Translations under genes and position numbers: made by a program
Shown: in pieces, positions 17,323 to 49,226 of the stretch
How the letters are laid out: each line of letters starts with the position of its first letter
How positions within the stretch are numbered: position 1 is the stretch's first letter
Notes under the pieces: model-generated
The model's database searches: none
Seen by the model: only the letters and a program-made list of their open reading frames with translations
Told to the model about the DNA's origin: nothing
DNA from: Akkermansiaceae bacterium
GTDB taxonomy: Bacteria; Verrucomicrobiota; Verrucomicrobiia; Verrucomicrobiales; Akkermansiaceae
Assembly: GCA_013041925.1 (NCBI GenBank)
Contig: JABDRB010000001.1
Coordinates: forward strand, 71,750-135,749
Reading direction: 5' to 3'
DNA: 64,000 nucleotides

Positions 17323-17502
17323 GGTATTGATAGTTAGTTGTGATCAGGCTCGCCGGGTGACTTCCCGCACGCCTGTGATGGGGTGAATACTACGCGCCAC
17401 GGGTATGACGCGTCAAGCCATTGGTTTCCAACAGGGATTTCGTCGCATTGCGCCAAATACAATGACACCAGTATGTCTTCATGATGATTGAAGCTGAACG
17501 GA

Positions 17503-17937: not shown

Positions 17938-18064
17938 GGCGCAAGGATTTATACAAGGATTTATAAAGGTTGCGAGCGGTAATTCCGCGAACCTAGTTTT
18001 TAGAAGTGACAAAGAGCTGATGACTTGTTGAAAAAGACCGCGACCGCTTTGGGTTCGCGCGGGG
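17938..18064 (-). promoter_or_regulatory. CRISPR leader
   Basis: 127 bp between the cas2 stop and the first repeat, comparatively AT-rich near the array. A perfect tandem 12-bp direct repeat (CAAGGATTTATA twice, 17942-17965) begins five bases from the repeat. It is followed by an imperfect hairpin at 17968-17993 (arms GCGG / CCGC flanked by GGTT / AACC). The leader should contain the array promoter and the Cas1-Cas2 integration signals, but no -10/-35 pair was assigned. Confidence 0.75.
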
Positions 18065-18355: not shown

Positions 18356-18376
18356 TATGGGGATTGGTTATGAAGT

Positions 18377-19411: not shown

Positions 19412-19421
19412 TAATTTGTGA

Positions 19422-20078: not shown

Positions 20079-20085
20079 TACTTGG

Positions 20086-20940
20086 TTATATCCGTTCGAT
20101 GATCTCGATGCCCTTGTCGACGCAGAACTTCTTGAGCTCGTCGGGGACGTTGACGGTGTAATCATTGAAGGAGCGCGGGACTTCGATGCCTTCCTTTTTT
20201 TGGATGGTTACACCCTCGAGGAGCTTGGCACTTGGGGCTTTACCGAGTTGGTTTTTGTGTTTGAAAACGATGAGGGCACGTGGGTTCATGCTGCCAGCAG
20301 GGCGGGCCGCTGACTGGTCGAACTGGAAAGCATTTTCGAGGGCTGTGAAGAGAAGCGCCAGGTCGTCTTCGGAGAAACCTGTTTGTTCTGCGAGGAATGG
20401 ATTGATGAATCCTTGGGCTTTGTAGAGACCGTAGGGGATGGTAAATTTTCGGCCCATGGTGCGTTCTTTTTCAATGTCTTTTTCATCGGTGACAGAAGTG
20501 CGTGTAATCGCGTGTTCAGCAGCGACGATGGGATCGATTGAACTGGCGAAAGATAGCTGTGCTGGCCCGCGAACTTGTCCGCAGTTGACCTTGGTTGACA
20601 TGACGGCTCCAAAGGTGCGAACGTCGTAGAAATTCTGACACATCCATTCACGAGCTTTGTCTTTTTCCGCACGTTTGGCCTTTTTGGGATCGCCGAGATC
20701 AAGGGCTTTGTAGGCTTCCTCATGTTGAAGGTTATGCACTGCAAATTCTTTGAAATAGATACGCTTTTCGGGCTGAGTGGTTTCGACAAAATTGCGTACT
20801 TTGCGTTTCAGACAAACGTCGGTGACGAGGCCGTGGCCAGTTTCTGCGTCAATACGCGGTAGGTTTCCTGCATCGGGGTCGCCGTTTGGGTTGGCGTTGG
20901 TGCAGTCGAATATATAGAGGAAATCGTATCGGTTATTCAT
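20086..20940 (-). CDS. cas7c: Type I-C Cascade backbone protein Cas7 (Csd2)
   Basis: 284 residues beginning [20 protein letters not shown], the diagnostic Csd2/Cas7 N-terminus (DCxxANPNGDP). It then has [10 protein letters not shown] and [12 protein letters not shown], conserved in the family. It polymerises along the crRNA to form the Cascade spine. It lies between cas8c (37 bp) and cas4. Confidence 0.97.
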
Positions 20941-20977
20941 GGTCTTATTTTTATTAGTTGTTAATGTTTGCTTGGGA

Positions 20978-22906: not shown

Positions 22907-22921
22907 GATTCGATTTGAGTA

Positions 22922-23632
22922 TTAGATTTCGAATGGGAGTGAGGGAACGGTGATGTTGCCGTTGGTCATCTCTGCGCGGAAGAAGTGCGGGGTTGTGGAT
23001 TTCACGGCTTTGGTTTTCGGGTTTTGGTCGAATTCGATGTCGTGTAGCATAAAGCCGAGATCCTTTTCTCCTTGGAGGGATTCGTGGGGGGTGGGTAGTC
23101 CGCTGTCGTTTTCGTGGAGCTTGAAGTTGACGGGGAATTCCCGGCAGCCGAAGTAAGGTTGGTGGAAAGCTTGACCTGTGCGTGCGCGACGCTTGAACAT
23201 TTCGAGGTGCTTTCCAGCGGCTTCGTTGGCTGGGATTTTTTCGCCACCGCGTTCGATGCGGGTGTCGAGAATGTGGACGCTGGCGTGGATGAGATAGCGG
23301 ACATCACGGAGGAGGAGTGCGGCGCGTTGCTGGCGTTCTTGATCTACGTAAATTCCGAGGGTGTCATTTCCACCTTCAGCAACCATGGCGGCGGTGGGGT
23401 TGCTGGCTTTTTTGCTGATTTCGTTGCGGCGGATGTTGGTGAAACGGACGGGGTTGATGACGCTGATACTGTCGATGATCCAACGAATCTGCGGTTTCCA
23501 ATAGATAGCTTCAAGGATGCCGCGAGCAGCAGAGGGGGTGATGACATCGTAAGAGACGCGTTCGACTTTCATTTCTGGTCGGGAAAAAAGGGCGTAGTCG
23601 CCAGATACTTCGAGGGTGATGGGTGATTTCAT
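22922..23632 (-). CDS. cas5c: Cas5c, crRNA-processing Cascade subunit
   Basis: 236 residues beginning [20 protein letters not shown] and followed by [20 protein letters not shown] and [10 protein letters not shown], diagnostic of Cas5d/c. The conserved [20 protein letters not shown] region and a C-terminal FFRAEMTNG are present. In type I-C this protein replaces Cas6: it cuts the repeat and stays on the crRNA 5' handle, which fits the absence of a cas6 here. Its start overlaps the cas3 stop by four bases (ATGA), indicating translational coupling. Confidence 0.97.
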
Positions 23633-26019
23633 GATGAGCAGATTAGTGTGTTAGAGTTTGGTGCTTCGTCGGTGAGGTTGAGGCCGAATTGATCGGAGTA
23701 ATGGGTTTCTGGACAGATGAGAATATGAAACTCACCGTCACGGACCGATTGGAATTGGTGTTGGTTTTTGTAGTAGTCGTTATCGTAGATTTGAACGGTG
23801 TAGCGTTGGAGTCCCCGGAGAAGATCGCGGTGGAGTGAGATGGTTTCGTTGCATAATTTATTTTTAATGAGGTCTTTTGAGACGTCATCCCAAGGAATAA
23901 TGATGGGTATTTGTTTGTTCTCGATGAGGTTGAATTTTTCAGCAGCAGTGCGGTAGTTGAAGATGAAGGGTAGATCGGGTGAACCACCGAACTCAAAATC
24001 GTCTAGAATGTGTTTGGCATCCCAGTGGTTTCTGTTCTGGTGGTAGTATTTGTTGAAGTATCCTTGGACGGCTTCGGTGCCGAGTGGGTCATCGGTGTGA
24101 AGGTCTAGAAATTCGTGTCCAACGCAGGCGGTGTCAGCGAAGTAGCGTTCTGATTTAATATGTTCTGAGTGGAAGACGTGGGCTTGACCGATTACAATTT
24201 TTCCTTCGCGGTTGCAACGGCCAGCGGCCTGAGCGATGGAGTCAAGTCCAGCCATGGAGCGATATACGATCGGGAAATCGACATCGACACCAGCCTCGAT
24301 CAGTTGGGTGGAAATGAGGCGAACGGGAAGTTTTTCATTCAGTCGTTTGCGGGCATTAGCGAGTACTTGCAGACGATGCTGCGGGCACATGAGGGTGGAG
24401 AGGTGGAAGTTCTCTTTGGTATTTCCGGGCAAGAGCTTGAAGAGCCTGTGTGCGTGCTTGCGTGTGTTGACGATGCAGAGGGCTTGAGTGGCTTGTGCTA
24501 TTTCGCTGGAGATGGTTTCATCTGAGAGCTGGCCGCGGTAGGTGACGTTGACTCGGTTGAGGTCGGCGTAGAGCTTTTGTGGGTCTTTGATTATTTCATT
24601 GGAGCCGGGGAATCCGATGGGGAAGTCTGAGGATTTAGCAACTGCGGGCTGAGTGGCGGTGCAGAGGACTGTGGTGGTGTGGTAATTTTCCGAGAGTTCG
24701 CGGAGGACGCGTAGGCAGGGTTCAAGGTATTGGGTGGGGAGGCACTGAGCTTCGTCGAGAATAACTACGGAGTTGGCAATGTTGTGGAGTTTGCGAGATT
24801 TGGTAGTTTTAGCAGCGTAGAGGGATTCGTAGAATTGAACGGCGGTGGTGACGATGATGGGGGCGTCCCAGTTCTCGGCGGCTAAGCGGGATGTGATGGT
24901 TTGATTTTGTTCTGCATCGGGAGAGAGGTTAGAGTGGTGTTCGATGATGACTTCCTCACCAAGCGTGGCGAGCAGGTCGCGGAAGACGCTGGCATTTTGC
25001 TCGATAATGGAGGTGAAGGGAATGACGTAGATAATGCGCTTTTTTTGATGTTTGATCGCGTGGCGCAGGGCGAAGTTCAGCGAGGAGAGAGTTTTGCCTC
25101 CGCCAGTTGGGACAGTGAGGGTGAAAATGCCTGAAGGTGAGTCGGCGGCGGCGGTACAGTCGGCGACGACATTTGCACGGGCGTTGGCGACTTTGTCATC
25201 GGGGGGAGGTGAGCCAAAGGATGTGATTTTATTTTGGAGGAGCTTGAGGGCTTGCGAGAAGATGTCGGATTGATGCGAGGCGCGTGAGCTGGAGAGCTTG
25301 GGGCTCATGAACGACTCGGTGGCTAGGAAGTCGGCATCAACCAAGCAGGAGAAAATCATGCGTTGGAAGAAGGCGAGGGCGAAATTTGAATCCTTTCCTC
25401 TGGGTAGGTTGGTGAGAAATGATGAGAGTGGAGGGAGGGAATTGTTGGTGATTTCGTCAGGGGCTACAATGTTGGGTATTTCGTTTCCGAATGATTTTTG
25501 AAGACGCTTTTCTAGACAAGCGTGGGATTCGTGGCGAGCATCGAGCAGACCTGCGTGGTGTCCGGCTATCGCTGTAGCAATCATGTGTCCGAGCGCTGAA
25601 ATTGAGACCGCGTGTTTAGCTCCAGCTGTAGTATGGTCTTCTTTCTTCAGCGGGGCTCCAGAGGCCTCAGGTTGATGGATATCGGCTTTGGATTTTAAAT
25701 ATTCCTGCCATTCAGGTGAGTATTTACCAAGGTCGTGCCAGAGGCCGGTGAGGTAGCCCCATTGTCGTGCGGATTCCCGATCGGGGCCTTCTGGGAACAT
25801 ATTTGCTGCGAAGTTTGCTGAAAGGTAGGCTACTTTATTGAGATGGCCGTGTTGGGGTTCCAGATTGATGCAGTGGAGACAGGGTGCGCCGTTATTTCCT
25901 GAGCATGCCGATTTGGGATCATCAGGGTCGGTAGTGGAAAAACGAGTAAACAAAGGCTCCCAAGGAGAGCTATCCTTCGTTGTATGAGCGTAAAATTGAT
26001 CTAGATGAAAACAGGTCAT
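23629..26019 (-). CDS. cas3: Cas3 nuclease-helicase
   Basis: 796 residues with HD nuclease at the N-terminus ([33 protein letters not shown] and [13 protein letters not shown]) and a superfamily 2 helicase at the C-terminus. Walker A is [14 protein letters not shown], Walker [10 protein letters not shown] (DEAQ where DEAH is more usual, seen in other Cas3), motif III ATQPA, and the later blocks [13 protein letters not shown] and [11 protein letters not shown]. It unwinds and degrades target DNA. First gene of the operon; fused HD and helicase is normal for type I-C. Residues 57-74 carry [18 protein letters not shown] with paired cysteines, a minor variant. Confidence 0.97.
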
Positions 26020-35516: not shown

Positions 35517-36140
35517 TTAGACCATCGGGACAAACTGCACGGCCATGTGTTCGGTTATTTCGATGTCACCGCGGGGTGTTTTTTGGTAGCATGTCAGTAT
35601 TTGGCGTGGGCTATCGTGTGAGATAGGAAGGACTAGGCGGCCGTTGGGTTTGAGCTGTTTGAGGAGATTCTCCGGAACATGACGAGGGGCGCAGGAAACG
35701 AGGATGGCGTCGAATAACTTGTCGTCTGGCCAGCCAAGGTAGCCATCGCCACGGCGAGCGTCGATGTTGTCGATTCCCAGCGATTCAAAATGCCTCGCCG
35801 CCATTTCCGCCAATTCGGGGATACACTCCAGCGTGCAGACTTGTTTAGCGATCGAGGCGATGACTGCGGCCATATAGCCACAGCCGGTTCCCACATCGAG
35901 CACGATCGATTCCCGCGTGATCTGGGCCAGCTCGATCATGGTCGCCACGATATACGGCTGTGAGATGGTTTGCCCACGGCCGATGGGAAGCGGCCGGTCG
36001 TCGTAGGCATATTGCTTAAACTCGGGCGGAACGAATTGTTCACGCGGAACATGAGCCATGGCATCAAGTAGGTGACGGTCACAGACACCTCGCGCCATTA
36101 AATGCTGATGCAGCATGGTTTCGACCGATGATTTCATCAT
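35517..36140 (-). CDS. pcm: Protein-L-isoaspartate O-methyltransferase
   Basis: 207 residues. MARGVCDRHLLDAMAHVPRE, the substrate-loop GRGQTISQPYIVATM and VLDVGTGCGYMAAVIA (SAM-binding motif I) are diagnostic, followed by RRGDGYLGWPDDKLFDAILV. The enzyme methylates L-isoaspartyl residues to repair aged proteins. Full length. Convergent with the Xer gene, 20 bp apart. Confidence 0.96.
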   Translation of the reverse strand: MMKSSVETMLHQHLMARGVCDRHLLDAMAHVPREQFVPPEFKQYAYDDRPLPIGRGQTISQPYIVATMIELAQITRESIVLDVGTGCGYMAAVIASIAKQVCTLECIPELAEMAARHFESLGIDNIDARRGDGYLGWPDDKLFDAILVSCAPRHVPENLLKQLKPNGRLVLPISHDSPRQILTCYQKTPRGDIEITEHMAVQFVPMV

Positions 36141-36356: not shown

Positions 36357-38765
36357 TTGAATTTCATGAAAAAGTTCCTGACCCTTTCTCTTGCGCTACT
36401 CATAGTAGGCAAATCTGTCGCTGAGCCTAGCCACATCTCTGGCATCTACCCACATCTCGCCATGTTTAATGATGAGGGGGAGTGCGGCACGGGTGCCATG
36501 GTGCCGTGGGCAGATCGTCTTTGGGTCATCACATATGCCCCTCACATGCCCAAGGGGTCATCCGATCAACTCTATGAGATCACACCAGATTTAAAACAAA
36601 TCGTCAGGCCCGAGTCGATCGGCGGCACTCCTGCCAACCGTATGATTCACAAGGAGTCAGGTCAGCTATTCATCGGGCCCTACGCCATTGATGCCCAGCG
36701 CAAGGTGCAAGCAATCCCCTACGATCAAATGTTTGGCCGCCACACTGGACTGGCGCGTCACCTCACCAACCCAACAGGAAAAGTAGTCTTCGCTACCATG
36801 GAGGAGGGCATTTACGAAGTGGATGTGGAAACCCTGACACCCACTGAACTGTGGGGTGACGAACAGGTAAAAAAATCACCACGTAAGGCGGATCTCCCCG
36901 GCTATCACGGCAAAGGTTTTTACTCCGGACAGGGGGTTTATGTATACTCGAACAATGGCGAACATGGTGAGCTGGCAAGGACCCGACCTGAGACCCCGTC
37001 CGGCGTGCTCGCCGAGTGGAATGGCAAGGCAGATAAGTGGACTGTCGTTCGCCGCAACCAGTTTACCGAGGTCACAGGGCCGGGTGGAATCAATGGAGGT
37101 TCTCACCCCGCCACCGACCCCATCTGGGCGGTCGGTTGGGACTATAAATCCCTGATCCTCGGCGTAAGAATGCCGAAAGACGGCTGGACGTTTTACCGCC
37201 TCCCGAAAGGCTCACACTCCTACGATGGCGCTCATGGCTGGAACACCGAGTGGCCGCGCATCCGCGAGATCGGCGAGGATGGCTACCTCATGACCATGCA
37301 CGGCACGTTCTGGAAATTCCCCCAAACATTCACCCCGCAGAACTCCGCAGGCATTACCCCGCGTAGCAACTACCTCAAAGTCATCGGAGACTTCTGTCGT
37401 TGGAACGACCACATCGTTATGGGCTGCGATGACACCGCCAAAAACGAATTTCTCAACAAACGCAAAGCCAAGGGGCATATTGCTGCCCCCCAGTCGCAGT
37501 CCAACCTCTGGTTTGTCAAACCCGAGCAGCTTGATAACTTTGGGCCTCTTGTTGGGCGTGGTGCCGTCTGGGAAAATGAAACGGTCCAAGCCAACCAGCC
37601 GTCCGACCCGTATCTCTTTTCTGGCTACGATTTACGTGCTTTGCACCTCAGTCACCAAGCGCAGATAGGCATCACCTTCACCCTCGAAGTGGACCAATTG
37701 GGCGATGGCAACTGGACTCCGCTTAAAAAAATCAAAGTGCCCGCTAAGGGGTACACGTTCACCGCATTCAGCGCAGAGGAAACCGGCACATGGATCCGCA
37801 TTTCCAGCGGTCATGATCTTCCCCAAGTCACTGCCGCCTTCACCTACCGGAACAACGATGGCCGCAGCGAAATGGCCGACTCACTTTTCAGTGGGCTCGC
37901 CACCACCAACCGGCTCACTGGCGGCCTCGTCCGTGCACGTGATAACAACAAACGCACACTCGCCTTCGCTGCCGTCGATGCTGCGGGTAACGACATTGGC
38001 TACTACGAGATGGGAGCCGACCTCACCCTCAAACGCACCACCGACCCCGACGCCCACGAGTTCACCAAGGAAAAAACCGCCATTCCCACAGCCGCACTGA
38101 CCGTCGACAACGCTTCCGTCATCTACACCGATGAACAAGGCAAGCGCTGGCGACTCCCCAAGGGCGAACTACCCGCCAAGCATCCTCTCGGGGCCTCACG
38201 TATTGCTCGGGAAGTCGCCACCGAGCGTGATCTCCTCAATGCCCACGGAACGTTCTACGAGCTGCCCGCACGCAACGCCGGTGGCATTGGCAAGCTCCGC
38301 GCGATCGCCACCCATAACCGCTACATCCACGACTTCTGTTCCTACCGTGGCCTGTTCATCATGTCCGGCATCGCGACGGATACAAACGGTGAACACATCA
38401 TTAGGTCAGACGATGGCAAAACAGCTCTCTGGGCTGGCACCATCGATGACATCTGGAAAATGGGCAAACCCCGCGGAAAAGGGGGGCCATGGCTCGATAC
38501 ACCCGTCAAGGCCGGAGAACCATCCGACCCGTATCTCATGACCGGCTACGATCAGAAAGTCATCCAACTCCGCTCCAGCGAAAACTCGAAGATCACCGCC
38601 CAGGTGGACCTCACAGGATCGGGCAACTGGGTCGACTACCCATCTTTCGAGTTAGAAAAAAACCAGACCATCGTGCACGAGTTCCCCGCAGCATTCCAAG
38701 CCTACTGGATCCGTTTTGTTTCCGATACGGATGCCCGGGTCAGCACCCAACTGCTCTACCGTTGA
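36357..38765 (+). CDS. Secreted 802-residue protein with two related halves
   Basis: Signal peptide at the N-terminus (KFLTLSLALLIVGKSVAEP; the ATG at 36366 starts directly at it). I do not recognise a named family. The text blocks HGTFWKFP..DFCRW..SNLWF..VWENETVQANQPSDPYLFSGYD (about residues 312-500) and HGTFYELP..DFCSY..TALWA..PWLDTPVKAGEPSDPYLMTGYD (about 627-802) are clearly related, 315 residues apart, so the protein contains a duplicated module; the N-terminal 310 residues lead into the first copy. Beta-rich, propeller-like in appearance. First gene of a cluster with an SGNH esterase, a sulfatase and another esterase, so a role in polysaccharide binding or cleavage is plausible but unproven. 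Confidence 0.85.
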   Translation: MNFMKKFLTLSLALLIVGKSVAEPSHISGIYPHLAMFNDEGECGTGAMVPWADRLWVITYAPHMPKGSSDQLYEITPDLKQIVRPESIGGTPANRMIHKESGQLFIGPYAIDAQRKVQAIPYDQMFGRHTGLARHLTNPTGKVVFATMEEGIYEVDVETLTPTELWGDEQVKKSPRKADLPGYHGKGFYSGQGVYVYSNNGEHGELARTRPETPSGVLAEWNGKADKWTVVRRNQFTEVTGPGGINGGSHPATDPIWAVGWDYKSLILGVRMPKDGWTFYRLPKGSHSYDGAHGWNTEWPRIREIGEDGYLMTMHGTFWKFPQTFTPQNSAGITPRSNYLKVIGDFCRWNDHIVMGCDDTAKNEFLNKRKAKGHIAAPQSQSNLWFVKPEQLDNFGPLVGRGAVWENETVQANQPSDPYLFSGYDLRALHLSHQAQIGITFTLEVDQLGDGNWTPLKKIKVPAKGYTFTAFSAEETGTWIRISSGHDLPQVTAAFTYRNNDGRSEMADSLFSGLATTNRLTGGLVRARDNNKRTLAFAAVDAAGNDIGYYEMGADLTLKRTTDPDAHEFTKEKTAIPTAALTVDNASVIYTDEQGKRWRLPKGELPAKHPLGASRIAREVATERDLLNAHGTFYELPARNAGGIGKLRAIATHNRYIHDFCSYRGLFIMSGIATDTNGEHIIRSDDGKTALWAGTIDDIWKMGKPRGKGGPWLDTPVKAGEPSDPYLMTGYDQKVIQLRSSENSKITAQVDLTGSGNWVDYPSFELEKNQTIVHEFPAAFQAYWIRFVSDTDARVSTQLLYR

Positions 38766-38859
38766 GCGACGTCCCCAGTTTCATCGTATCAGATGCTGAG
38801 TAGGATTTTTCGTGAAAGATTCGCACCTATCGCGCCTTATACATAACACCAGATAATCT

Positions 38860-40401
38860 ATGAACCACATCAATTCATCACTCATCGGAACAAGTTTTCT
38901 CATCGCTCTGACATCCGTCGCCACAGCAGAAATTCAGATGCCCGCATTCTTTTCAGACAAAATGGTCCTGCAACAAGAAACTGCGGCCAAAGTCTGGGGC
39001 AGCGCCGACGCGAATCAAAAAGTAAAAGTCAGCTTCGCCGGTCAGTCCCTCACCACCTCAAGCAACGCGGAGGGAAAATGGAGGATTGAGTTCACAGGAC
39101 TGAAAGCTTCTAAAAATGGAAGCTCGCTTACGATCGAAGCCGGAAAAGATACCCACGCCATCCATGATGTGCTCGTCGGAGAAGTCTGGCTCGCAAGTGG
39201 ACAGTCGAACATGGAATGGAAGGTGTCAGGCACAGCCAGCAAGCCATCAATCGCCACAGACAACGACGACCTACTCCGTGTCTACGTTTCAGGTAACACC
39301 ACATCCGCCAAGCCATCCACAGACTTTCCCGGCACATGGAAAGCAACCAAACCGGAAAATACGGGCAGTTTCACTGCAGTCGGTTATGAGTTCGCCAAGT
39401 CACTTCGTGAAAAACTCGATGTCCCCGTCGGTGTGATCGAGTGCTCATGGGGAGGAAAGCCCGTGCAATCATTTATCAGCGATGAAGCGCTGAAGGCCTG
39501 CCCTGAAGCCAAACCAATGCTCGACCATAAGTCAGCCGCAGTCAGCAACTACGACCCCGCAAAAGCCAAAGAAAATTATGAGGCGCGAATGAAAAAATGG
39601 AAGGTGGCCGATGCCCAATGGAAGACGGAGAAAAAAGGAAAACGTCCGAGGGAGCCAAGAAAGCCACGGCATCCAGCCTTAGCCGCTAACATGCCCTCTG
39701 CCATCTACAATGGCATGATTGCACCCCTCGTCGGTTACGGGTCACGGGGTGCCATCTGGTACCAGGGAGAATCCAATGCCAGAGGGTCACAAGCCATGGC
39801 ATACGGTGAACTCCTCGAATGCCTAATCCAAGATTGGCGCAAGCGCTGGGGCACCAATCTCTCCTTCTACTACGTGCAGCTTGCCAACTTCGAGAAATGG
39901 GGTGACAAGCAGGCATGGGTGAACGTGCAGGATGAAATGCGCCGCTTGCTCGACGACAGTAACTCAAAAACGGGACACATTGGCATGGCGACCATCAACG
40001 ACATCGGCGCACCGATGAACATTCACCCAAAGAATAAAAAAGACGTCGGTCAGCGGCTCGCCCGATGGGCGCTGAACCAAGATTACGGCATGAAAGACGT
40101 TGTTGTTTCCGGCCCACTTTACAAGTCACATGGAACTAAAGGCAATGCGGTCATTGTCGAGTTCGACCACGCCAATGGACTCAAGTCTCGTGACGGCAAA
40201 GCGCTTGGCTCATTTGAAATCGCCGGCGCGGATAACCAGTGGAAGCCAGCTCAAGCAATGATCGCCGGGAACACTGTGGTCGTGAGGAACAAGGACATCA
40301 GCAAGCCTACCCAAGCTCGCTACGCTTGGAAAATCAACCCAACGGCCGCCAACCTGGTCAACGGCGAAGGCCTTCCAACCAGCTGCTTCACCACACCCTA
40401 A
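38860..40401 (+). CDS. Secreted SGNH esterase, sialate O-acetylesterase-like
   Basis: 513 residues with a signal peptide (SSLIGTSFLIALTSVATAE). The SGNH block I is LASGQSNMEWK, with catalytic S116, followed by VGVIECSWGGKPVQSF, YNGMIAPLVGYGSRGAIWYQGESN and a His region around NIHPKNKKDVGQRLARWALN. The architecture matches 9-O-acetylesterase/acetylxylan-esterase-like proteins of Verrucomicrobiota and Bacteroidota that deacetylate glycans. A Lys/Arg-rich helical insert (residues 225-270) is unusual. It lies 94 bp after the 802-residue protein gene and 9 bp before the sulfatase. Confidence 0.88.
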   Translation: MNHINSSLIGTSFLIALTSVATAEIQMPAFFSDKMVLQQETAAKVWGSADANQKVKVSFAGQSLTTSSNAEGKWRIEFTGLKASKNGSSLTIEAGKDTHAIHDVLVGEVWLASGQSNMEWKVSGTASKPSIATDNDDLLRVYVSGNTTSAKPSTDFPGTWKATKPENTGSFTAVGYEFAKSLREKLDVPVGVIECSWGGKPVQSFISDEALKACPEAKPMLDHKSAAVSNYDPAKAKENYEARMKKWKVADAQWKTEKKGKRPREPRKPRHPALAANMPSAIYNGMIAPLVGYGSRGAIWYQGESNARGSQAMAYGELLECLIQDWRKRWGTNLSFYYVQLANFEKWGDKQAWVNVQDEMRRLLDDSNSKTGHIGMATINDIGAPMNIHPKNKKDVGQRLARWALNQDYGMKDVVVSGPLYKSHGTKGNAVIVEFDHANGLKSRDGKALGSFEIAGADNQWKPAQAMIAGNTVVVRNKDISKPTQARYAWKINPTAANLVNGEGLPTSCFTTP

Positions 40402-40410
40402 AACAAATTC

Positions 40411-41769
40411 ATGCCATCATCCTTCCTCGCCATTCTTATCTGGTGTTTTGTAGCCGCCACGGCGGACGGCGATGCCCCAGTAAAGCGGCAGGGGGGACAA
40501 GCAGAAGCATCTAAAAAGCCCAACGTTATCTTCATCATGGCCGATGACCTCGGCTATGGTGATATCTCTTGCTACGGCAGCAAAGCCATCAACACCCCGC
40601 ATATTGACGCGCTTGCTAGCACAGGAGTGAAATGCACCGACTATCATTCCAACGGTGCGGTTTGCTCCCCCACCCGAGCCGCTCTGATGACGGGTCGCTA
40701 TCAGCAGCGCGCTGGCGTCCCCGGTGTGATCACTGCCAAAAGCCACCGCCACACAGGCCTACCACTCAAGGAGTGGACCATGGGTGAAGCCATGAAAGAA
40801 CGCGGCTACCAGACCGCCATGTTTGGTAAATGGCACCTCGGATATGACCCCAAGTTCAACCCCGTCAAACAAGGTTTTGATGAGTTTAAGGGTTTTGTTT
40901 CGGGCAACGTCGATTACCATCGGCATATTGATCAGGAAGGATACTTCGATTGGTGGCAGCAGGATAAGCTCAAGGATGACCCCGGCTATATCACTGATCT
41001 TATCACCGACTATGCGGTCGATTTTATTCGTCGAAAAAAAGACAAGCCGTTCTGCCTGATCATCAATCACGGTGCACCTCATTACCCGATTCAGGGCAGA
41101 AAAACTCCCGGCTTTCGCGTGACAGGCAAATCCAAAAAACAACAATCCAGACTCAAATTGGACGCCCCCAAAGCGATCTACAAGGAAATGATCGAGGTGA
41201 TGGACGAGGGAGTTGGGGAAATTGTCAGAGAATTGGATCAACTGGGCATACGCGAAAACACCCTGATCATATTCACCTCTGATAACGGCCCCGCCAGTAT
41301 GGGATCCGCTGGTGTTTTCCGTGGCAAAAAAGGCCAAGTTTATGAAGGCGGCCACCGCGTGGCTGGTGTCTTCAACTGGCCCGCTCAGCTTCCTTCGGGC
41401 ACGGAATGCCACGCCCCCATCCTTTGCATGGATATGCTCCCTACCTTCGTGACTATCGCGGGAGGAATGCTCGACCCGAAACGAAAACTCGACGGGATCA
41501 ACATCATCGACGCACTTAAAGGAAAAGCCATCAAACGTAAGCCACTCTTTTGGCAGCACGGCAAAGGGACCGCCGTTCGTGACGGTCAATGGAAACTCGT
41601 CCATGTAGGTGAAAAATGGGAACTCTACAATCTGGCCAACGACATTTCTGAAAAACACAATCTTGCCGTAAAGCACCCTGAGAAGGTCGCGCGGCTCAAT
41701 GAGTTGATTGCTGCTTGGCAAACTTCCGTCAGCCAGTCATACCACATGCATCAATCGTTTAAAAATTGA
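40411..41769 (+). CDS. Secreted formylglycine-dependent sulfatase
   Basis: 452 residues with a signal peptide (SSFLAILIWCFVAATADG). Sulfatase landmarks: NVIFIMADDLGYGDISCYG, C85-S-P-T-R89 (Cys-type formylglycine site), TGRYQQRAGVPGV, MFGKWHLG, IFTSDNGPAS and YEGGHRVAGVFNWP. C-terminal VRDGQWKLVHVGEKWELYNL is typical of arylsulfatase-like S1 enzymes. It cleaves sulfate from a glycan. Shares an operon with the SGNH esterases at 38860 and 41839. Confidence 0.93.
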   Translation: MPSSFLAILIWCFVAATADGDAPVKRQGGQAEASKKPNVIFIMADDLGYGDISCYGSKAINTPHIDALASTGVKCTDYHSNGAVCSPTRAALMTGRYQQRAGVPGVITAKSHRHTGLPLKEWTMGEAMKERGYQTAMFGKWHLGYDPKFNPVKQGFDEFKGFVSGNVDYHRHIDQEGYFDWWQQDKLKDDPGYITDLITDYAVDFIRRKKDKPFCLIINHGAPHYPIQGRKTPGFRVTGKSKKQQSRLKLDAPKAIYKEMIEVMDEGVGEIVRELDQLGIRENTLIIFTSDNGPASMGSAGVFRGKKGQVYEGGHRVAGVFNWPAQLPSGTECHAPILCMDMLPTFVTIAGGMLDPKRKLDGINIIDALKGKAIKRKPLFWQHGKGTAVRDGQWKLVHVGEKWELYNLANDISEKHNLAVKHPEKVARLNELIAAWQTSVSQSYHMHQSFKN

Positions 41770-41838
41770 TCGGCTCCCGACTCGGTCGCCTGACCTTTTT
41801 TATCCTCAAACACACCCTAACCATTACCATCGAAACCT

Positions 41839-42819
41839 ATGAAAACCACAACACTTCTGCTCACCTTCGCCTTGATGTTTACCTCCGTGCTGTCTGCGGC
41901 ACCCGCCACGCAGAAGGCGAACGGCAAACTCAAAGTCTTCATTCTTGCCGGTCAGTCGAATATGGTAGGTTTCGGCCAAGTCGAAGGCGATAAGCCCGGC
42001 ACGATGGAAACTTGCCTGAAGGAAAACCCAGATGCTTACGGAAAACTCGTCGACAAAAAAGGCGCTCCCGTGACGCGCGACGACGTATGGTTGGTTAATC
42101 TCTCCTACGCGGACAAAGCCAAGCAAGGTTGGTTGACGACGGGCTTCGGTGCCACGGATGGACACATCGGACCCGAATACGCATTTGGATTTGCCGTTGG
42201 TGATTACTATGAGGATCCGGTTTTACTGATCAAATGCGCCTGGGGTGGCCGCTCGCTCAATCACAATTTTCTACCTCCCAGTGCGGCGGATTACCCGAAA
42301 CCGCAAAAGGATGGAGACAAAGGGTATCAATACGCTGAGACCATCCGGATCACCCAAGAGATCATCAACAACATCAAGACCTACTTTCCGAAATACAAGG
42401 GCAAGGGTTATGAGGTTGTCGGTTTCGGTTGGCATCAGGGATGGAATGACCGGATCGATCAAAAGGCCGTCGATGCCTACGAAGAAAATCTCGTGCACCT
42501 CATCAAAGACCTCCGCAAAGATATCGGCGTCAAGGACCTGCCATTCGTGATTGCCAACTCGGGTTTCGACGGCTGGGACATCAACAAGCGCTATCGCGCT
42601 AAAGTTGAAAAACACCTCAATGCCCAGCTTGCTGTGGCCAATGTGAAAAAATATCCCAGCTTCAATGGCAATGTGGCGGCGGTCGAAACCCGCGACTTCT
42701 GGCGCCCGAGCTCGAAGTCACCCTCAAAGCAAGGCTTCCACTGGTCACGCAACTGGGAGACCTACTACCTCATCGGCAAACATATGGGCCAAGCGATCAC
42801 TGGGCTGGCTGGCCAGTAG
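41839..42819 (+). CDS. Secreted SASA-domain esterase
   Basis: 326 residues with a signal peptide (LLLTFALMFTSVLSAAPA). The SGNH/SASA block FILAGQSNMVGFGQ has catalytic S40. Further conserved regions are LIKCAWGGRSLNHN, VGFGWHQGWNDRID and NVAAVETRDFW, typical of the carbohydrate-esterase (CE6-like, sialate O-acetylesterase-like) group. It removes acetyl groups from polysaccharide. Last gene of the sulfatase cluster; it has a second esterase upstream, which suggests an acetylated, sulfated glycan as the target. Confidence 0.88.
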   Translation: MKTTTLLLTFALMFTSVLSAAPATQKANGKLKVFILAGQSNMVGFGQVEGDKPGTMETCLKENPDAYGKLVDKKGAPVTRDDVWLVNLSYADKAKQGWLTTGFGATDGHIGPEYAFGFAVGDYYEDPVLLIKCAWGGRSLNHNFLPPSAADYPKPQKDGDKGYQYAETIRITQEIINNIKTYFPKYKGKGYEVVGFGWHQGWNDRIDQKAVDAYEENLVHLIKDLRKDIGVKDLPFVIANSGFDGWDINKRYRAKVEKHLNAQLAVANVKKYPSFNGNVAAVETRDFWRPSSKSPSKQGFHWSRNWETYYLIGKHMGQAITGLAGQ

Positions 42820-42854: not shown

Positions 42855-44459
42855 CTACGCCGTGACCGACCCGCGGCTGTCGTCGAGGCCGGATTTTTCC
42901 AGGTAGTAATCGTAACCGCCGGCGTAGCGGGTGAGTTTGCCGTTATCGACGTGGAGCGTTGTCTCTGCGAGGTTCTTGATGAAGTGAACGTCGTGGGAGA
43001 TGAAGACGAGCGTCCCCTCGTAGTGTTTCAGTGCCTGCAGCAGGGCCTCGATGGAAATGATATCGAGGTGGGTTGTCGGCTCGTCCATGAGCAGGAGGTT
43101 GGGTGGGTTAACCAAGAACTTAACCAGATTGAGTCGGGATTTTTCACCTCCGGAGAGGACACGGATTTTTTTATGCACGTCCGCGCGGCGGAAAAGGAAC
43201 GAGCCGAGGATGGAGCGGGCTTCATCTTCGCGCATATCACCGCCGCTGGCCATGACCTCCTCAAGCACGGTGTTGGCTTCGTTCATCGACTCTGTCCGGT
43301 GCTGCGAGTAGTAACCGAGCTGCGTATTGAACCCAGCCTTGCGCGTGCCACTCTGAAATTCGAGCTGACCGGCGAGAATTTTGAGCAGGGTTGATTTACC
43401 GGCACCATTCGGGCCGACGAGCACCATGCGGTCGCCACGCTCGATGGTGAGATCAAGGCTTTCGTAGATCACCTTTTCACCATAGGCCATGTGGACTTTT
43501 TCCAGTTCGATGACTTTTTGATTCGACCGTTTAGGCTGGGGGAAATTGAATTTGAACACCTTGCGCGGAGCAATCGGCTTCGGCAGCCGATTCATTTTCT
43601 CGAGTTGCTTGACCCGGCTCTGCACCTGCGCGGCTTTCGAGGTGACCGAACGGAATCGGTCGATAAACTCCTGGACGCGTTCGATTTCTTTGTTTTGGTT
43701 CCGGTAAGCCTGCACCTTCTGGGTGTAGCGTTTATTGCGCTGCTCAAGGTAGGAGGTGTAGTTGCCGGTGTAGGAAATCAGCTGCTCCTCATCGATTTCG
43801 TAAACGGTTTCGATCAAGGCATCCATGAAATCGCGATCGTGCGAGATCATCAGCATCGCGCCTGGGTAGTTCAGCAGGTAACGTTGAAGCCAGACAAGGG
43901 CGGTGAGGTCAAGGTGGTTCGTGGGCTCATCCAGCATCAGGAGATCAGGCTCCATGACAAGGAGTTGCGCAAGGTGGGCGCGCATGATCCAGCCGCCTGA
44001 AAATTCGGGGGCAGGCGAGTCAAAGGCATCCGACGCGAAGCCGAGACCGGCGAGGATTTTTTTGGCCTTGGGTTCGAGTTGGTAGCCGTTGGCGGCATCA
44101 AAAACGTCTTGCGCCTTGTGGTAGTCACCGCTGTCGGTGGTGCCAGCGGCTTCATGTTCGCGCATGGTTCGGATGGCCTGGGTAAGCTCGGGCGTGATAC
44201 TGATGGCGATTTCGAGAATTGTCTCGTCACCAGGGTCGCCAGCTTCTTGGGCGAGGTATCCGGTGATGGCGTAATCGTCGACTTCGACGCTGCCTGTATC
44301 TGCATCCACTTCCTTGAGGATCATTTTAAACAGGGTGGACTTGCCAGCGCCATTAGGGCCGACGAGTGCGACACGTTCGCCCCAGTTGATGGTCATATCC
44401 GCGTTCTCAAAGAGAGTGCGGCCGCCGATGGTTTTGGTGAGTTTTCGAATGATGAGCAC
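42855..44459 (-). CDS. ABC-F family ATPase
   Basis: 534 residues with two ABC ATPase domains and no membrane segment. Walker A GPNGAGKSTL occurs twice (about residues 35 and 350), the signatures are EFSGGWIMRAHLAQ and VLSGGEKSRLNLVKF, and both Walker B motifs LLMLDEPTNHLDL and LLMDEPTTHLDI end in the ABC-F linker style. The inter-domain region is charged and helical (YRNQNKEIERVQEFIDRFR). The family acts on ribosomes in translation or antibiotic protection; which member is unclear (Uup/EttA-like). Confidence 0.9.
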   Translation of the reverse strand: MLIIRKLTKTIGGRTLFENADMTINWGERVALVGPNGAGKSTLFKMILKEVDADTGSVEVDDYAITGYLAQEAGDPGDETILEIAISITPELTQAIRTMREHEAAGTTDSGDYHKAQDVFDAANGYQLEPKAKKILAGLGFASDAFDSPAPEFSGGWIMRAHLAQLLVMEPDLLMLDEPTNHLDLTALVWLQRYLLNYPGAMLMISHDRDFMDALIETVYEIDEEQLISYTGNYTSYLEQRNKRYTQKVQAYRNQNKEIERVQEFIDRFRSVTSKAAQVQSRVKQLEKMNRLPKPIAPRKVFKFNFPQPKRSNQKVIELEKVHMAYGEKVIYESLDLTIERGDRMVLVGPNGAGKSTLLKILAGQLEFQSGTRKAGFNTQLGYYSQHRTESMNEANTVLEEVMASGGDMREDEARSILGSFLFRRADVHKKIRVLSGGEKSRLNLVKFLVNPPNLLLMDEPTTHLDIISIEALLQALKHYEGTLVFISHDVHFIKNLAETTLHVDNGKLTRYAGGYDYYLEKSGLDDSRGSVTA

Positions 44460-44593: not shown

Positions 44594-45262
44594 TTACTTA
44601 AGCTCCTTGATTTTGATGTTTTTCCAAGCCACTGAAAATGGCCCGCGGAGCCCGACGCTGTGGACTTGGAGGCCAAAAAATCCTTTCGGGTGGGATTTGA
44701 AGCCGACAGGGTCGTTGAGGTCGATGATCGCGTTGCCGTTGATCCATACTTGGATGCGAGGGCCTTGGGCAACCACGCGGTAGTGGTTCCAAGCGCCGTC
44801 TTTGAAGTGCTTGTGTGGCTTGCGCTGAGCGTTGGGGACGAGCCAATCGCGACTTGTCGCCTCGCCATAGATGTAACCGGCTTCGCCGCCGCCTTTGATC
44901 TCAGTGGCTTCGATCTCGACCTGCGGGCCGTTGACACGACCATTGGGTTTGTCGCCATGGGTGCGCGACCGGATTTGAACGCCAGAGTTGAGTGCGTTGT
45001 CGACCTTGACATCGAACTCGAGTTCAAAGTCACCATAAATTTGATCGGAGCAGAGAAAGGAGTTCGGGCTGACCTTGGCGGTGGTGCCGACAATGGTGCC
45101 GTCTTTGACCACATAGCTCGCCCTGCCGTTTTTCTGAGTCCAGCCATGAAGTGTCTTGCCATCAAAGAGGCTGGTCCACTCCGTCGCTTGATCGTTATGG
45201 TGGCCAGCTTGAACAGCCGATGTGAGCAGGGCAGCACTGAGCAGGGTGAAAAGAGTTTTCAT
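44594..45262 (-). CDS. Secreted DUF1080 (3-keto-disaccharide hydrolase) protein
   Basis: 222 residues from ATG 45262 (MKTLFTLLSAALLTSAVQAG, a signal peptide); upstream in-frame codons are rejected because the signal is here. The DUF1080 jelly-roll shows WTSLFDGKTLHGWTQKNG, DFELEFDVKVDNALNSGVQI and NHYRVVAQGPRIQVWINGN. The family includes 3-keto-glucoside hydrolases and polysaccharide-binding proteins. Likely periplasmic. Adjacent to the GH-like protein gene in opposite orientation. Substrate unknown. Confidence 0.9.
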   Translation of the reverse strand: MKTLFTLLSAALLTSAVQAGHHNDQATEWTSLFDGKTLHGWTQKNGRASYVVKDGTIVGTTAKVSPNSFLCSDQIYGDFELEFDVKVDNALNSGVQIRSRTHGDKPNGRVNGPQVEIEATEIKGGGEAGYIYGEATSRDWLVPNAQRKPHKHFKDGAWNHYRVVAQGPRIQVWINGNAIIDLNDPVGFKSHPKGFFGLQVHSVGLRGPFSVAWKNIKIKELK

Positions 45263-45500
45263 GTGGATGGGAATACGGCCCCGCATCACGTGATCTTTCA
45301 CCGCCCCTCCCAGTGCGCCGGGCATTCTTTTATTTTTGTTTGTGGCCTTGATTTGGGGAAGCGCAGGCATGAATGAAACCCAAATTACCCTTGATAAGCA
45401 GAGATCTAAGGATTTAATCGGAGTGCGATCAGGTAACCGTCTTAGCGGTTTTGAAATGCGGCTGAAACGATTTGCTGAGAAAACATAAAGTAATAAAAAT

Positions 45501-47258
45501 ATGATGACAAACGACGGATCAATAACGACCTTTTCCCAAAGTTCTGGCTCTAGCCAAGCTTCATCCTGCAAACCCGATAAGCAAGGGTATTTCAACCGAT
45601 GGATGTATAACACGCAAAGAGGGCTGCTGACACTAGCCCTTGTAGGGTCGGTCATTCAATGTGGCAATCTACAGGCTGCTGAAAAATCTGGTGTCACTGC
45701 GATGAGCATCCCAGATTATGAGATCAAGTCCTACTGTGTTGATTTTAACTGGACGGCTGGTGGCAGAAAAGGTCAGAACAATTTTGCGAAACCCGGAGAA
45801 TATGCGGCGGCTGATCCTAAAGGGCTTGTTGAGTGGCACAAGGCGATAGGGTCCAATGTGATTCAAACCTTCTGCGTTTCACACAACGGCTATGCTTGGT
45901 ATAAGAGTGATGTCACTCCACCTCAGCCGGGCTTAAAGCACGACTTCTTGCGTGAAGTCGTGAAGCTAGGGCACGCCGAGGATATGCTGGTAATGGGGTA
46001 TTTAAGCATAGCGGCTAACACGCGTTGGGGTGATGAGAACCCTAGTTTGAGCTATGGTTCACCATCTACCTATCATTTGCCATACACTGATGAGTATCTT
46101 GCTTATTTAGATAAAGCGATCCGCGATGCGGTTACAACTGGGATTGACGGGTTTATGCTGGATTGGATTTGGCAACCGAAACGATCATCAACAAATGGAA
46201 AATGGATAGATTCAGAAAAGAAACTATACGAACAACTCATGGGTGAAAAATTTCCAGGTGAGGATAAACTGAGTGAGAAAAAAGACACGGAATACAGCCG
46301 AAAAGCGATCGACCGTTGTTGGAAAACGATCCGTAAGGCGGCTAAGCAAGTGAACCCAGATTGTGCTATTTGGCTAACGTGTAACAAACTCCAGCATCCA
46401 CATATTGATGATTCAGATATGCTTAAGGAGATTGATTGGTTGCTCGCAGAATCGGGGAATGTAAAAAATCTTGAGAAAATCAAATCGTTTGTTGGAAAGC
46501 ATACTAAGCTGATTGTTTGTTTGGCTGCTTGGAACAACAAAGACCCAGCATTTGTTATCCCGAGTGCCAAAGAAAATAAGTTAGGGTTATACGGATTTTG
46601 CAAGCCACGTACAAAAGATGGACGCATCCCTATGGATAAATTTCTTTCTAAACAGCTTACAGAATTAGTCGGTGACGATCGTAATATCGCCGCGTTGGCT
46701 CGTGCTTATCAGGGGTTATCACTTGAGTCTGAACTAGTTGATGGCAAGTTTGTTGAACCCAAAGTGGCACCCGCATATAGGTTGCAAATACTTGCCGGCG
46801 GACGAGGTTCTGCGAATAGAGGCACTAATAGATTTTCTAATGGCTCAGGTGAGGTGAAGGTGAATACGCCTCACCGTAGAGGCGCACTCCTGTTGACTCG
46901 ACTCGGAGACACATGGCCAGAAACAGTGAACCTTCATTATTGGACGATCAAACGTGAAAAAAATGAAAAGGATATGTCAGCGGTTCAAACAGTGACCTTT
47001 TTTAATGGTAAGCTGGGCTGTGAAGTGGCTATTGATGAAAAAGGAAAGACTCGCTTTGGAGCTCCAAAAAAATTCACGATTAATGTGAATTGGGCAAGGA
47101 GCTTTAAGGTTGGAGGTGGTGACTCTGAAACAAAGCCCATTACGGTGCCGTTCACATCCGATAAGAATAATCTAAAGCTAGTTATCCCTAAAGAGATCCT
47201 CACTGGAAACCCCGAAACGATTGCTGTTGCTTGGGGTAAGCGATTCGTCGCTAAGTAG
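45501..47258 (+). CDS. Secreted glycoside-hydrolase-like TIM-barrel protein
   Basis: 585 residues; a signal-like segment (QRGLLTLALVGSVIQCG) is near residue 39, so ATG 45603 may be the true start. The barrel is suggested by SYCVDFNWTAGG, SNVIQTFCVSHNGYAWY, DMLVMGYLSIAANTRWG, GIDGFMLDWIWQP and CAIWLTCNKLQ. The acidic D in GFMLDWIW lies where GH29-type alpha-L-fucosidases and GHL6-type hydrolases have the nucleophile. The C-terminal 150 residues are a beta-sandwich. The gene is visibly AT-richer than its neighbours (Ala/Gly codons ending in A/T, AAA/TTT rich), which hints at recent acquisition. Family call by motif resemblance only. Confidence 0.65.
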   Translation: MMTNDGSITTFSQSSGSSQASSCKPDKQGYFNRWMYNTQRGLLTLALVGSVIQCGNLQAAEKSGVTAMSIPDYEIKSYCVDFNWTAGGRKGQNNFAKPGEYAAADPKGLVEWHKAIGSNVIQTFCVSHNGYAWYKSDVTPPQPGLKHDFLREVVKLGHAEDMLVMGYLSIAANTRWGDENPSLSYGSPSTYHLPYTDEYLAYLDKAIRDAVTTGIDGFMLDWIWQPKRSSTNGKWIDSEKKLYEQLMGEKFPGEDKLSEKKDTEYSRKAIDRCWKTIRKAAKQVNPDCAIWLTCNKLQHPHIDDSDMLKEIDWLLAESGNVKNLEKIKSFVGKHTKLIVCLAAWNNKDPAFVIPSAKENKLGLYGFCKPRTKDGRIPMDKFLSKQLTELVGDDRNIAALARAYQGLSLESELVDGKFVEPKVAPAYRLQILAGGRGSANRGTNRFSNGSGEVKVNTPHRRGALLLTRLGDTWPETVNLHYWTIKREKNEKDMSAVQTVTFFNGKLGCEVAIDEKGKTRFGAPKKFTINVNWARSFKVGGGDSETKPITVPFTSDKNNLKLVIPKEILTGNPETIAVAWGKRFVAK

Positions 47259-47534: not shown

Positions 47535-49115
47535 CTAGGATTTGATGATCTTGCTGTCCTCGCTTCGGAGGCGGGCGACCGAGTAGTGGGGGTCGTCAGG
47601 AAGGACCTCGATGTTGACGAGCCTCCCAGCCCTTTCGAGCATCTGGCGGCAGTCGGCTGACAGGTGACGAATGTGGAGTGTTTTACCGGCATTGCGATAA
47701 CGCTCGCCGAGTGCGTTGATGGCTTCGAGTCCGGAGAGGTCGCAGACGCGGGCTTCCTCGAAGTCGATGACGATGTTGGGAACGTCGGACTTGGCTTGAA
47801 ACTTATCGGAGAACTCACGTACGGAGCCGAAGTAAAGCATTCCCTCGACGCCGTAGATGCGCTCTTCTGGTGTGTCTTTGTGCATGGTCACGGTGATGTG
47901 CCTTGAGCTTTCCCAGGCGAAGACCAGAGCGGAGAGAATGACACCTACAAACACCGCCAGCGCAAGGTCGTGCATGATGGCTGTCACCATTGTTACAGTG
48001 ATGATGATCAACATCTCGGACTTGGCAATTTTGCCGAAGCTCTTAAAGGTCGACCACTCGAAGGTGCCGATCACGACCATAAACATCACACCGACGAGGG
48101 CGGCGATAGGGATCTGAATGATGACTGGGCCACCTAGCATGATGAAGAGGGCTAAAGCTAGAGCAGCGACAACGCCTGATGTACGGCCACGACCACCTGA
48201 CTTGATGTTGATCAGTGACTGTCCAATCATCGCGCAACCACCCATACCATGGAACAGTCCAGAAAGGATGTTAGCGGCTCCCTGAGCAAGGCTCTCGCGG
48301 TTACCCTGACCACGTGTTTCGGTGATTTCATCGATCAGCTGAAGGGTCATTAGAGACTCAATGATGCCGACCATGGCCACCACAAAGGCGGTTTTCAAAA
48401 TGAATTGCCAGTGTTCCAACCAGTTAAATCCTGATGGCCATGCGAACGGGGGGAAATCAGGGCTTAGCGTGCCGCTACCACCGCCGTCTTTCAGCACGTT
48501 TTCAATCGTTCTGGCATCTGGTAAGAAATAGGCAATAACACCAACGATAATGATCGCAACCAACGTTGATGGCACCGCTTTGGTGATTTTTGGGAAAAAC
48601 TGAATGATCGCCATGGTCAGAACCACGAGGCCAATCATAAGCCAGAGTGCGCCGCCCTGCATCCACTCGCCACCGGCCTTGAAAAAGCCGAACTGGCCCA
48701 TGCAGATAACGATCGCAAGTCCGTTGACAAAACCGATCATGACCGGATGAGGGACAAGCCGGATGAAACGGGCGAGTTTCAAGAGGCCAAAGAGGATTTG
48801 GATGACGCCGGCAACGATGATGACGGCAAAGAGGAATTGGAGTCCGAGTCCATCTCCGAGCTCGTTTCCGTATTTTACGGCTGAGCCGGCGACCACGGCG
48901 ATGGCACCGGTGGCGCCTGAGATCATCCCTGGACGCCCCCCGAGGGTGGAGGTGATGAAGCCCATAAAGACGGCGGCCCAGAGGCCAACAAGAGGATCGA
49001 CCCCCGCGATGAACGAGAAGGCGATGGCTTCAGGAACGAGGGCAAGGGCAACGGTCAGACCGGAGAGGGAATCGTCCTTGAGGTTGCCATTTTTTTTGGT
49101 AAAGAGATGAAACAT
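47535..49115 (-). CDS. SulP-family anion transporter with STAS domain
   Basis: About 526 residues from ATG 49115, preferred over 49142, whose extra residues are outside the family. The transmembrane domain shows SGLTVALALVPEAIAFSFIA and GLWAAVFMGFITSTLGGRPG, the SulP signature, and GGCAMIGQSLINIKSGGRGR. A C-terminal STAS domain starts near residue 430 (FSDKFQAKSDVPNIVIDFEE, then ARVCDLSGLEAINAL). SulP members move sulfate, bicarbonate or other anions. Divergent from a beta-carbonic anhydrase 111 bp away, which favours bicarbonate uptake. Confidence 0.93.
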   Translation of the reverse strand: MFHLFTKKNGNLKDDSLSGLTVALALVPEAIAFSFIAGVDPLVGLWAAVFMGFITSTLGGRPGMISGATGAIAVVAGSAVKYGNELGDGLGLQFLFAVIIVAGVIQILFGLLKLARFIRLVPHPVMIGFVNGLAIVICMGQFGFFKAGGEWMQGGALWLMIGLVVLTMAIIQFFPKITKAVPSTLVAIIIVGVIAYFLPDARTIENVLKDGGGSGTLSPDFPPFAWPSGFNWLEHWQFILKTAFVVAMVGIIESLMTLQLIDEITETRGQGNRESLAQGAANILSGLFHGMGGCAMIGQSLINIKSGGRGRTSGVVAALALALFIMLGGPVIIQIPIAALVGVMFMVVIGTFEWSTFKSFGKIAKSEMLIIITVTMVTAIMHDLALAVFVGVILSALVFAWESSRHITVTMHKDTPEERIYGVEGMLYFGSVREFSDKFQAKSDVPNIVIDFEEARVCDLSGLEAINALGERYRNAGKTLHIRHLSADCRQMLERAGRLVNIEVLPDDPHYSVARLRSEDSKIIKS

Positions 49116-49226
49116 AAGCAGATAGGTGAGTGTGAGCGCCACGCACTAGAGCTATGTGTGGACAATAGCAACCCTGATCCCGTGAAATTTTTCTTGTGAT
49201 ATCTGGGGTTGGAGAGAATCTGAACC

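Follow-up and report, generated by a model that had tools for sequence, protein, structure and literature searches.

The window analysed here, a stretch of 64,000 nucleotides from an Akkermansiaceae bacterium (contig JABDRB010000001.1, positions 71,750 to 135,749), carries at positions 36357-42819 a run of four genes that encode a protein of unnamed family, which we call the lead protein, followed by an esterase, a sulfatase and a second esterase. We consider it fairly likely that this interval is a small glycan-processing cluster led by a glycan-active enzyme of an unnamed family. As a glycan cluster of sulfatase and esterases it is of an ordinary kind, and interest centres on the lead protein, a member of an unnamed β-propeller family. 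We infer that the lead acts on glycans. In other genomes sulfatases are enriched in the genes next to its homologues, one homologue is fused to a sulfatase, another follows a SusC-SusD pair, and a shorter form of the protein often stands beside a LacI-type regulator. A complete lack of any link between homologues of the lead and sulfatases in other genomes, the outcome named in the initial annotation as refuting its proposal, was not what we found.

Sulfatases near the lead protein in other genomes

Neighbouring genes were counted at 117 dereplicated loci holding 121 homologues of the lead; at 41 of these loci one side of the lead has fewer than three genes. The set derives from 141 loci, of which 10 were dropped where a simple open reading frame (ORF) picker had masked the lead (L079, L103, L105, L111, L126, L127, L130, L146, L153 and L160) and 14 were merged as duplicates over the last 150 residues; the shorter loci L001-L030 were left out of the neighbour counts. 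Sulfatases were called with a profile hidden Markov model grown from the window sulfatase, which may miss distant sulfatases. By this measure they make up 15 of the 236 genes adjacent to the lead and 28 of the 641 genes within three positions of it, compared with 4 of the 554 genes four or more positions away (p 1e-5 for the adjacent genes). With the genus and one near relative removed, the adjacent count is 11/219 and the distant count 3/487 (p 3e-4).

The enrichment is also seen when the density of sulfatases in the genomes is taken into account. Using first-look sulfatase counts and an assumed 1150 bp per gene, we observed 10 adjacent sulfatases for 63 homologues where 2.28 were expected, and 7 where 1.94 were expected once the genus was removed (p 0.003). 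Every one of the 26 genes scanned, out of the 28 called as sulfatases, matches PF00884, and the other two (those of the window and the fusion) matched it separately; the gene called at locus L048 matches the phosphodiesterase family PF01663 better than PF00884. Together with its partner PF16347, PF00884 is the commonest Pfam family among operon-like neighbours, at 12 of the 94 given to Pfam, which were hand-picked from 220 mostly by size and closeness.

In genome G152 a sulfatase and a lead homologue are fused in a single frame of 1278 residues, with a CSPSR motif and a short linker. The link to sulfatases that the initial annotation expected in other genomes is therefore borne out by the enrichment and by this fusion, and is partial in its reach, a sulfatase lying within three genes of the lead at 20 of the 117 loci. 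Two other kinds of gene are commoner close to the lead, FecR-LamG genes (15/641 compared with 3/554, p 0.008) and flavin adenine dinucleotide (FAD) oxidoreductases (p 0.03); because the seeds for both were chosen after they had been sighted at lead loci, these p-values are post hoc, and they are uncorrected.

Polysaccharide utilisation loci (PULs) of Bacteroidetes are typified by a TonB-dependent receptor paired with RagB/SusD (SusC-SusD). One of 72,556 plasmid records holds a lead homologue, in Spirosoma oryzicola (Bacteroidota), 54% identical over the full length. Its start lies 44 bp downstream of a RagB/SusD gene, which in turn comes after a TonB-dependent receptor gene, and a GH130 protein, a cellulose-binding-domain protein and a parallel β-helix protein are encoded within 15 kb.

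Predicted structure of the lead protein and its invariant residues

The AlphaFold2 model of the lead has a mean predicted local distance difference test score (pLDDT) of 93.3 and a predicted template modelling score (pTM) of 0.91. It consists of a seven-bladed β-propeller, a β-sandwich, a blade-like middle part and a second β-sandwich (Table 1). The propeller region falls into seven strand groups with pLDDT blocks of 81-97, an assignment that holds for the predicted model. A fold search with the whole model listed 50 rows of generic propellers, with Z of 17.7-19.5, root-mean-square deviation (rmsd) mostly 3.7-4.6 and 263-295 aligned residues; we take the propellers in these rows to be seven-bladed proteins. 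Since the rows are tied, no single relative can be picked for the lead. The C-terminal 409 residues folded alone (pLDDT 95.2) gave two β-sandwiches, for which the fold search returned weak β-sandwich rows, mostly with Z under 8 (best row Z 10.6, rmsd 2.9, 98 aligned). Named propeller lyases are not in the 50 rows shown for either search, an absence that does not exclude them.

The initial annotation had described the lead as a two-module protein of no recognised family, and both statements stand. Residues 277-495 and 595-799 are homologous (28% identity and 7e-20 in blastp, 1.7e-34 in profile comparison), indicating an internal duplication. The lead has no significant Pfam match (one sub-threshold match, Dpy-30, at 0.24), no NCBIfam match up to 0.1 and, in phmmer and profile searches with both its long and short forms, no relative among PDB sequences better than 0.45. 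The named lyase families gave no match to it in the Pfam and PDB-sequence searches, which included no CAZy-specific profiles. A single weak Pfam match, BslB at 0.019, was obtained for the Spirosoma homologue.

Across 13 long, short and intermediate forms of the protein, which are 35-63% identical to the window lead, 71 columns are invariant. Twenty-six of these are polar residues in the propeller: E39, Y57, H60, T88, N91, R92, H95, D109, R125, H132, E146, H181, K183, N196, N197, D259, S262, R278, K281, H290, T294, E295, R298, R300, D342 and D355. We regard these 26 residues as a putative active site.

Distribution of the family and its short forms

Homologues of the lead occur in 100 of 192 genomes of relatives and in 53 of 288 genomes sampled across the phylum, and under NCBI names they span six phyla (Verrucomicrobia, Planctomycetes, Lentisphaerae, Kiritimatiellae, Acidobacteria (Bryobacterales) and Bacteroidota); no match was found among 50,697 phage records. 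Carriers include rumen, other animal-gut, groundwater, pond and lake bacteria, so that the family in general is unlikely to have a substrate confined to seaweed. The gene is also present in the cultured strains Luteolibacter marinus NBU1238 and Haloferula sp. BvORR071. Forty-five homologues from several phyla align to the window lead at 50-77% identity. In a tree of 46 lead proteins the phyla are intermixed, with 11 label changes where the least possible number is 4, a pattern compatible with transfer or paralogy. Word searches of the literature, which may miss such a report, found no description of the family. A long subfamily (L031-L038; ORFs of 1150-1458 residues with untrimmed starts and extra terminal parts) is present in six genomes of the window's family and in G103, and at L031 and L035 a long copy lies directly before a copy of normal length.

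Searches of the phylum and class also returned a short form of ~460 residues, which aligns to the propeller and the last β-sandwich only and lacks the middle part (residues ~505-700 of the lead). Five aligned short forms are 35-38% identical to the window lead, and those scanned with Pfam and NCBIfam (3 + 5) gave nothing significant. Judged by eye, most have no evident signal peptide; in the one at L288 the N-terminus is hydrophobic, and for a few the start is uncertain. We read 18 short-form loci, leaving out other matches such as fragments in G233 and G487. A LacI-type gene lies divergent from the short form within ~165 bp at 10 of the 18 (L239-L244, L279, L280, L285 and L286) and ~2.4 kb away at two (L282 and L287); none was found at the remaining six (L245, L246, L281, L283, L284 and L288), of which L284 is cut by a contig end. 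Pfam confirmed the LacI identity of all four regulators scanned. Intermediate forms of ~620 residues with part of the second module occur at L247 and L248 and may be traces of stages in the internal duplication or in its decay.

We considered whether the lead might instead be a non-catalytic glycan-binding or surface protein, similar to SusE or SusF, that holds chains for the sulfatase and the esterases. The position of the Spirosoma homologue right after SusC-SusD would suit such a role, as would the carbohydrate-binding modules among the weak fold rows for the β-sandwich domains, a weak CBM_35_2 match in Pfam (0.0044) in one of 46 homologues, the LamG-containing regulators near the lead at some loci and the longer paralogues with their extra terminal parts. 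The short form, however, in most cases showing no evident signal peptide and often paired with a LacI-type regulator, fits an intracellular enzyme better, and even at 35% identity the charged residues do not vary. The identity of 50-77% to the window lead, over 46 rows and several phyla, is also high for a binder. We think a binding role unlikely and favour an enzyme, since the short form is of cytosol type and charged residues of the propeller are invariant.

The cluster enzymes and the four-gene set within the genus

The third gene of the cluster matches the Sulfatase family PF00884 at 5.4e-58 and carries the formylglycine motif C-x-P-x-R as CSPTR at residue 85, as expected of an S1 sulfatase. 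Its nearest solved relatives are S1 sulfatases of carrageenan degradation (PDB 6prm, 9fo1 and 6b0k; 7.6e-76 for 6prm), which have the C-x-P-x-R motif in common with it in alignment; they are distant from the window sulfatase, and the relation gives no basis for assigning a subfamily or substrate. Carrageenan was considered as the substrate and rejected, since the relatives of carrageenan type are only distant.

The initial annotation had called one SGNH and one SASA esterase. The two esterases remain, but not as members of distinct families, since both score above the cut-off for SASA PF03629 (5.1e-16 for esterase 1 and 1.6e-22 for esterase 2). GQSN is present in both, IHP in esterase 1 and FHW in esterase 2; we assume that the GQSN block and the catalytic-histidine region (IHP/FHW) are functional motifs. 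Esterase 1 aligns across both halves with solved SASA esterases (PDB 9ega 'Sialate O-acetylesterase', 7kmm and 9h4u; 6.5e-90 with 9ega), which carry the names sialate or sialic-acid-specific O-acetylesterase and which we take to be family CE20. These are 636-644 residues long, in contrast to 513 for esterase 1, in which the middle part is much shorter. The Pfam scan recognised no glycoside hydrolase or lyase among the four cluster genes. The sulfatase and esterase families support the initial proposal of a cluster of glycan-degradation type.

The lead and each enzyme were also searched against 14 genomes of the genus, the window's own included; the lead loci then read exclude those of G001 and G005. 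The four-gene set was not found together in the other genomes, and the closest relatives of both esterases lie on contigs other than that of the lead. In G007 a sulfatase begins 69 bp after the lead (78% identical), and the 172 of its residues that the contig contains are 87% identical to the window sulfatase; the lead there is preceded by the end of another sulfatase and a gene of 94 residues. G002 (87% complete) has a sulfatase end, a 94-residue gene and a sulfatase (78%) in this order and gave no match to the lead. At loci L091 and L231 a gene for a 94-residue membrane-like protein lies between two sulfatases, with the lead following it at one locus and missing at the other. Among the 14 genomes a close relative of the window sulfatase follows the lead in G007 only; less related sulfatases follow it in G011 and G012, and one lies three genes away in G013.

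This comparison indicates that the lead-sulfatase pair is the shared part, which the esterases join in the window. It may be, then, that the pair is older and that the esterases came separately and act on other substrates. The adjoining lead and sulfatase of G007, with no esterase, would fit such a recent assembly; so would the nearest relative of esterase 1 (74%, G002), which forms a run with four sulfatase genes on a separate contig, and that of esterase 2 (67%, G010), on a different contig from that genome's lead. The intact motifs, the small gaps and the hydrophobic N-termini of all four products speak against it, and mixing of modules is usual in glycan clusters. We hold a recent assembly to be possible though doubtful. 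The content of the cluster agrees with a glycan bearing both O-acetyl and sulfate groups, as the initial annotation suggested; since the four-gene set was not found elsewhere, that argument draws on one cluster, the window's own. The cluster points to no specific polysaccharide that can be named.

Layout of the cluster and flanking genes

As initially described, the four ORFs lie head to tail on one strand with small gaps (36357-38765, 38860-40401, 40411-41769 and 41839-42819; gaps of 94, 9 and 69 bp). The lead had been given 802 residues; the gene stands, with a better start at the ATG at 36366, 9 bp past the TTG, which gives 799 residues. The resulting N-terminus, MKKFLTLSLALL..., resembles a signal peptide by eye, and all four products have a hydrophobic stretch of this kind, judged in the same way. 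The products probably act outside the cytoplasm, and the four genes probably form one transcript. A scan for promoters and terminators proved uninformative about transcription.

Table 1. Features of the cluster and of the rest of the window.
Feature	Position	Strand	Basis
Lead protein, 799 residues, unnamed family	36366..38762	+	ORF; no significant Pfam/NCBIfam match; AlphaFold2 model
Seven-bladed β-propeller (predicted), residues ~20-394	36423..37547	+	model, fold search
β-sandwich, first copy (predicted), residues ~395-500	37548..37865	+	model, fold search
Blade-like middle part (predicted), residues ~505-700	37878..38465	+	secondary structure; later half is a diverged copy of the propeller end
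β-sandwich, second copy (predicted), residues ~703-799	38472..38762	+	model, fold search, profile comparison
SASA esterase 1, PF03629, 513 residues, hydrophobic N-terminus	38860..40401	+	Pfam, GQSN and IHP motifs
S1-type sulfatase, hydrophobic N-terminus	40411..41769	+	Pfam PF00884, CSPTR at residue 85
SASA esterase 2, PF03629, hydrophobic N-terminus	41839..42819	+	Pfam, GQSN motif
PCMT	35517..36140	-	
ABC-F ATPase	42855..44459	-	
3-keto-disaccharide hydrolase	44594..45370		PF06439
GHL6 putative glycosyl hydrolase	45501..47258		PF14871
Sulfate permease	47538..49142	-	PF00916 plus STAS
Second sulfatase	4837..6435		PF00884
CRISPR-like array with Cas_Csd1 and Cas3-like genes	17502..26019		7 repeats

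The flanking genes, for PCMT upstream and an ABC-F ATPase downstream, lie on the opposite strand and are unrelated to the cluster. Past the ABC-F gene, ~2-3 kb downstream, are genes for a GHL6 putative glycosyl hydrolase and a 3-keto-disaccharide hydrolase. The window also holds a sulfate permease gene, a second sulfatase gene ~30 kb upstream of the cluster, and a CRISPR-like array (common core of ~33 nt, spacing 67) that adjoins Cas_Csd1 and Cas3-like genes and with them presumably forms a type I-C-like system.

Discussion

PL24, PL25 and PL42 are described (PMC8377490, PMC12915356) as seven-bladed propellers that cleave uronic-acid linkages by β-elimination, with an arginine as neutraliser and histidine or tyrosine as base and acid. 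The lead resembles PL24, PL25 (ulvan), PL42 (rhamnose-glucuronate) and the propeller family GH145 in its predicted seven-bladed propeller with conserved arginine, histidine and tyrosine. The invariant residues R92, R125, H60, H95, H132, H181, H290 and Y57 would be candidates for such neutraliser, base and acid roles in an anterior pocket. The same reports place S1 sulfatases in the ulvan loci of propeller lyases (PMC12915356, PMC8377490), as in the window cluster. In contrast to these families, the lead showed no sequence relation to them in the Pfam and PDB searches, and it has an added, duplicated β-sandwich. Verrucomicrobiota genomes have been reported to contain PULs that hold several sulfatases (PMC8857213), and in the window cluster, too, sulfatase and carbohydrate esterases adjoin. 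Unlike a PUL of SusCD type, the cluster has no SusC or SusD in the Pfam scan of 18 window proteins, which included the cluster and its direct neighbours; the pair was seen only at the Spirosoma homologue.

We suggest that the sulfatase would strip sulfate esters from a polysaccharide or its fragments and that the two SASA esterases would remove acyl, most likely O-acetyl, groups from them. The lead would cleave or modify the sugar chain, using a propeller pocket of charged His, Arg, Glu and Lys residues, and its β-sandwich copies may serve as binding or support domains. If the lead is a glycan-active enzyme, its most likely chemistry, by analogy with PL24, PL25 and PL42, would be β-elimination at a uronic-acid unit, to which we assign about half of our confidence in that reading; glycosidase activity is the main alternative. 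A broader proposal, which we make tentatively and at somewhat less than even confidence, is that the lead is the secreted, duplicated branch of an undescribed family of carbohydrate-active enzymes spread over six phyla, which would cleave one common acidic sugar linkage by a novel version of the chemistry of propeller lyases or hydrolases. Such a family would have a core of ~460 residues made up of the seven-bladed propeller and a β-sandwich; its secreted members would be linked to sulfatases or SusCD or stand on their own, and its cytosol-type members would often be neighbours of a LacI-type regulator.

Several observations weigh against a glycan-active enzyme at the head of a glycan-processing cluster. 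No sulfatase was found within three genes of the lead at 97 of the 117 loci (the fusion locus is counted among these), and within the genus none was seen near it at the G010 and G006 loci. Of the 121 homologues, 39 have no close neighbour on the same strand, contig ends included; genome G064 has four matches to the lead and few sulfatases (14 first-look candidates); and no sulfatase is listed within 15 kb of the Spirosoma copy, in an incomplete gene table. Linkage to extracytoplasmic function sigma factors, promising at some near loci, was rejected, as they are not enriched overall (9/641 compared with 6/554). The best fold rows, tied near Z 19, are eukaryotic WD-type proteins, the BT3049 sensor domain and virginiamycin B lyase, and apart from the generic propeller fold neither structure nor sequence searches linked the lead to any known glycan enzyme. 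The gathering of the invariant residues in a single pocket is a prediction. Finally, the cluster shows no clear promoter or terminator that would set it off as a single transcript (2 promoter-like sites where 3.8 were expected, 13 terminator-like sites where 8.8 were expected).

Another possibility is that the neighbourhood is loose and the function of the lead unrelated, for example that of a peptide or lactone lyase like virginiamycin B lyase, its nearness to sulfatases simply reflecting genomes that are full of them. The many loci with no sulfatase nearby would be explained in this way, as would the presence of virginiamycin B lyase among the fold rows, and the host genome alone yields 69 sulfatase-matching stretches from 50 candidates. 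Nevertheless, the enrichment of sulfatases persists when genome density is corrected for and when the genus is left out, a sulfatase and the lead are fused in one gene, and homologues occur in SusCD and LacI contexts. A lead of unrelated function is accordingly quite improbable in our view, and we retain the reading of a glycan-active enzyme.

Glycans that carry sulfate and acetyl groups make up a large pool of carbon that is used slowly, and little is known of the enzymes by which Verrucomicrobiota and Planctomycetota break into them. The lead family, with a small and presumably easily expressed form, is a direct target for study, and a single activity screen could supply a reaction for many proteins now listed as hypothetical.

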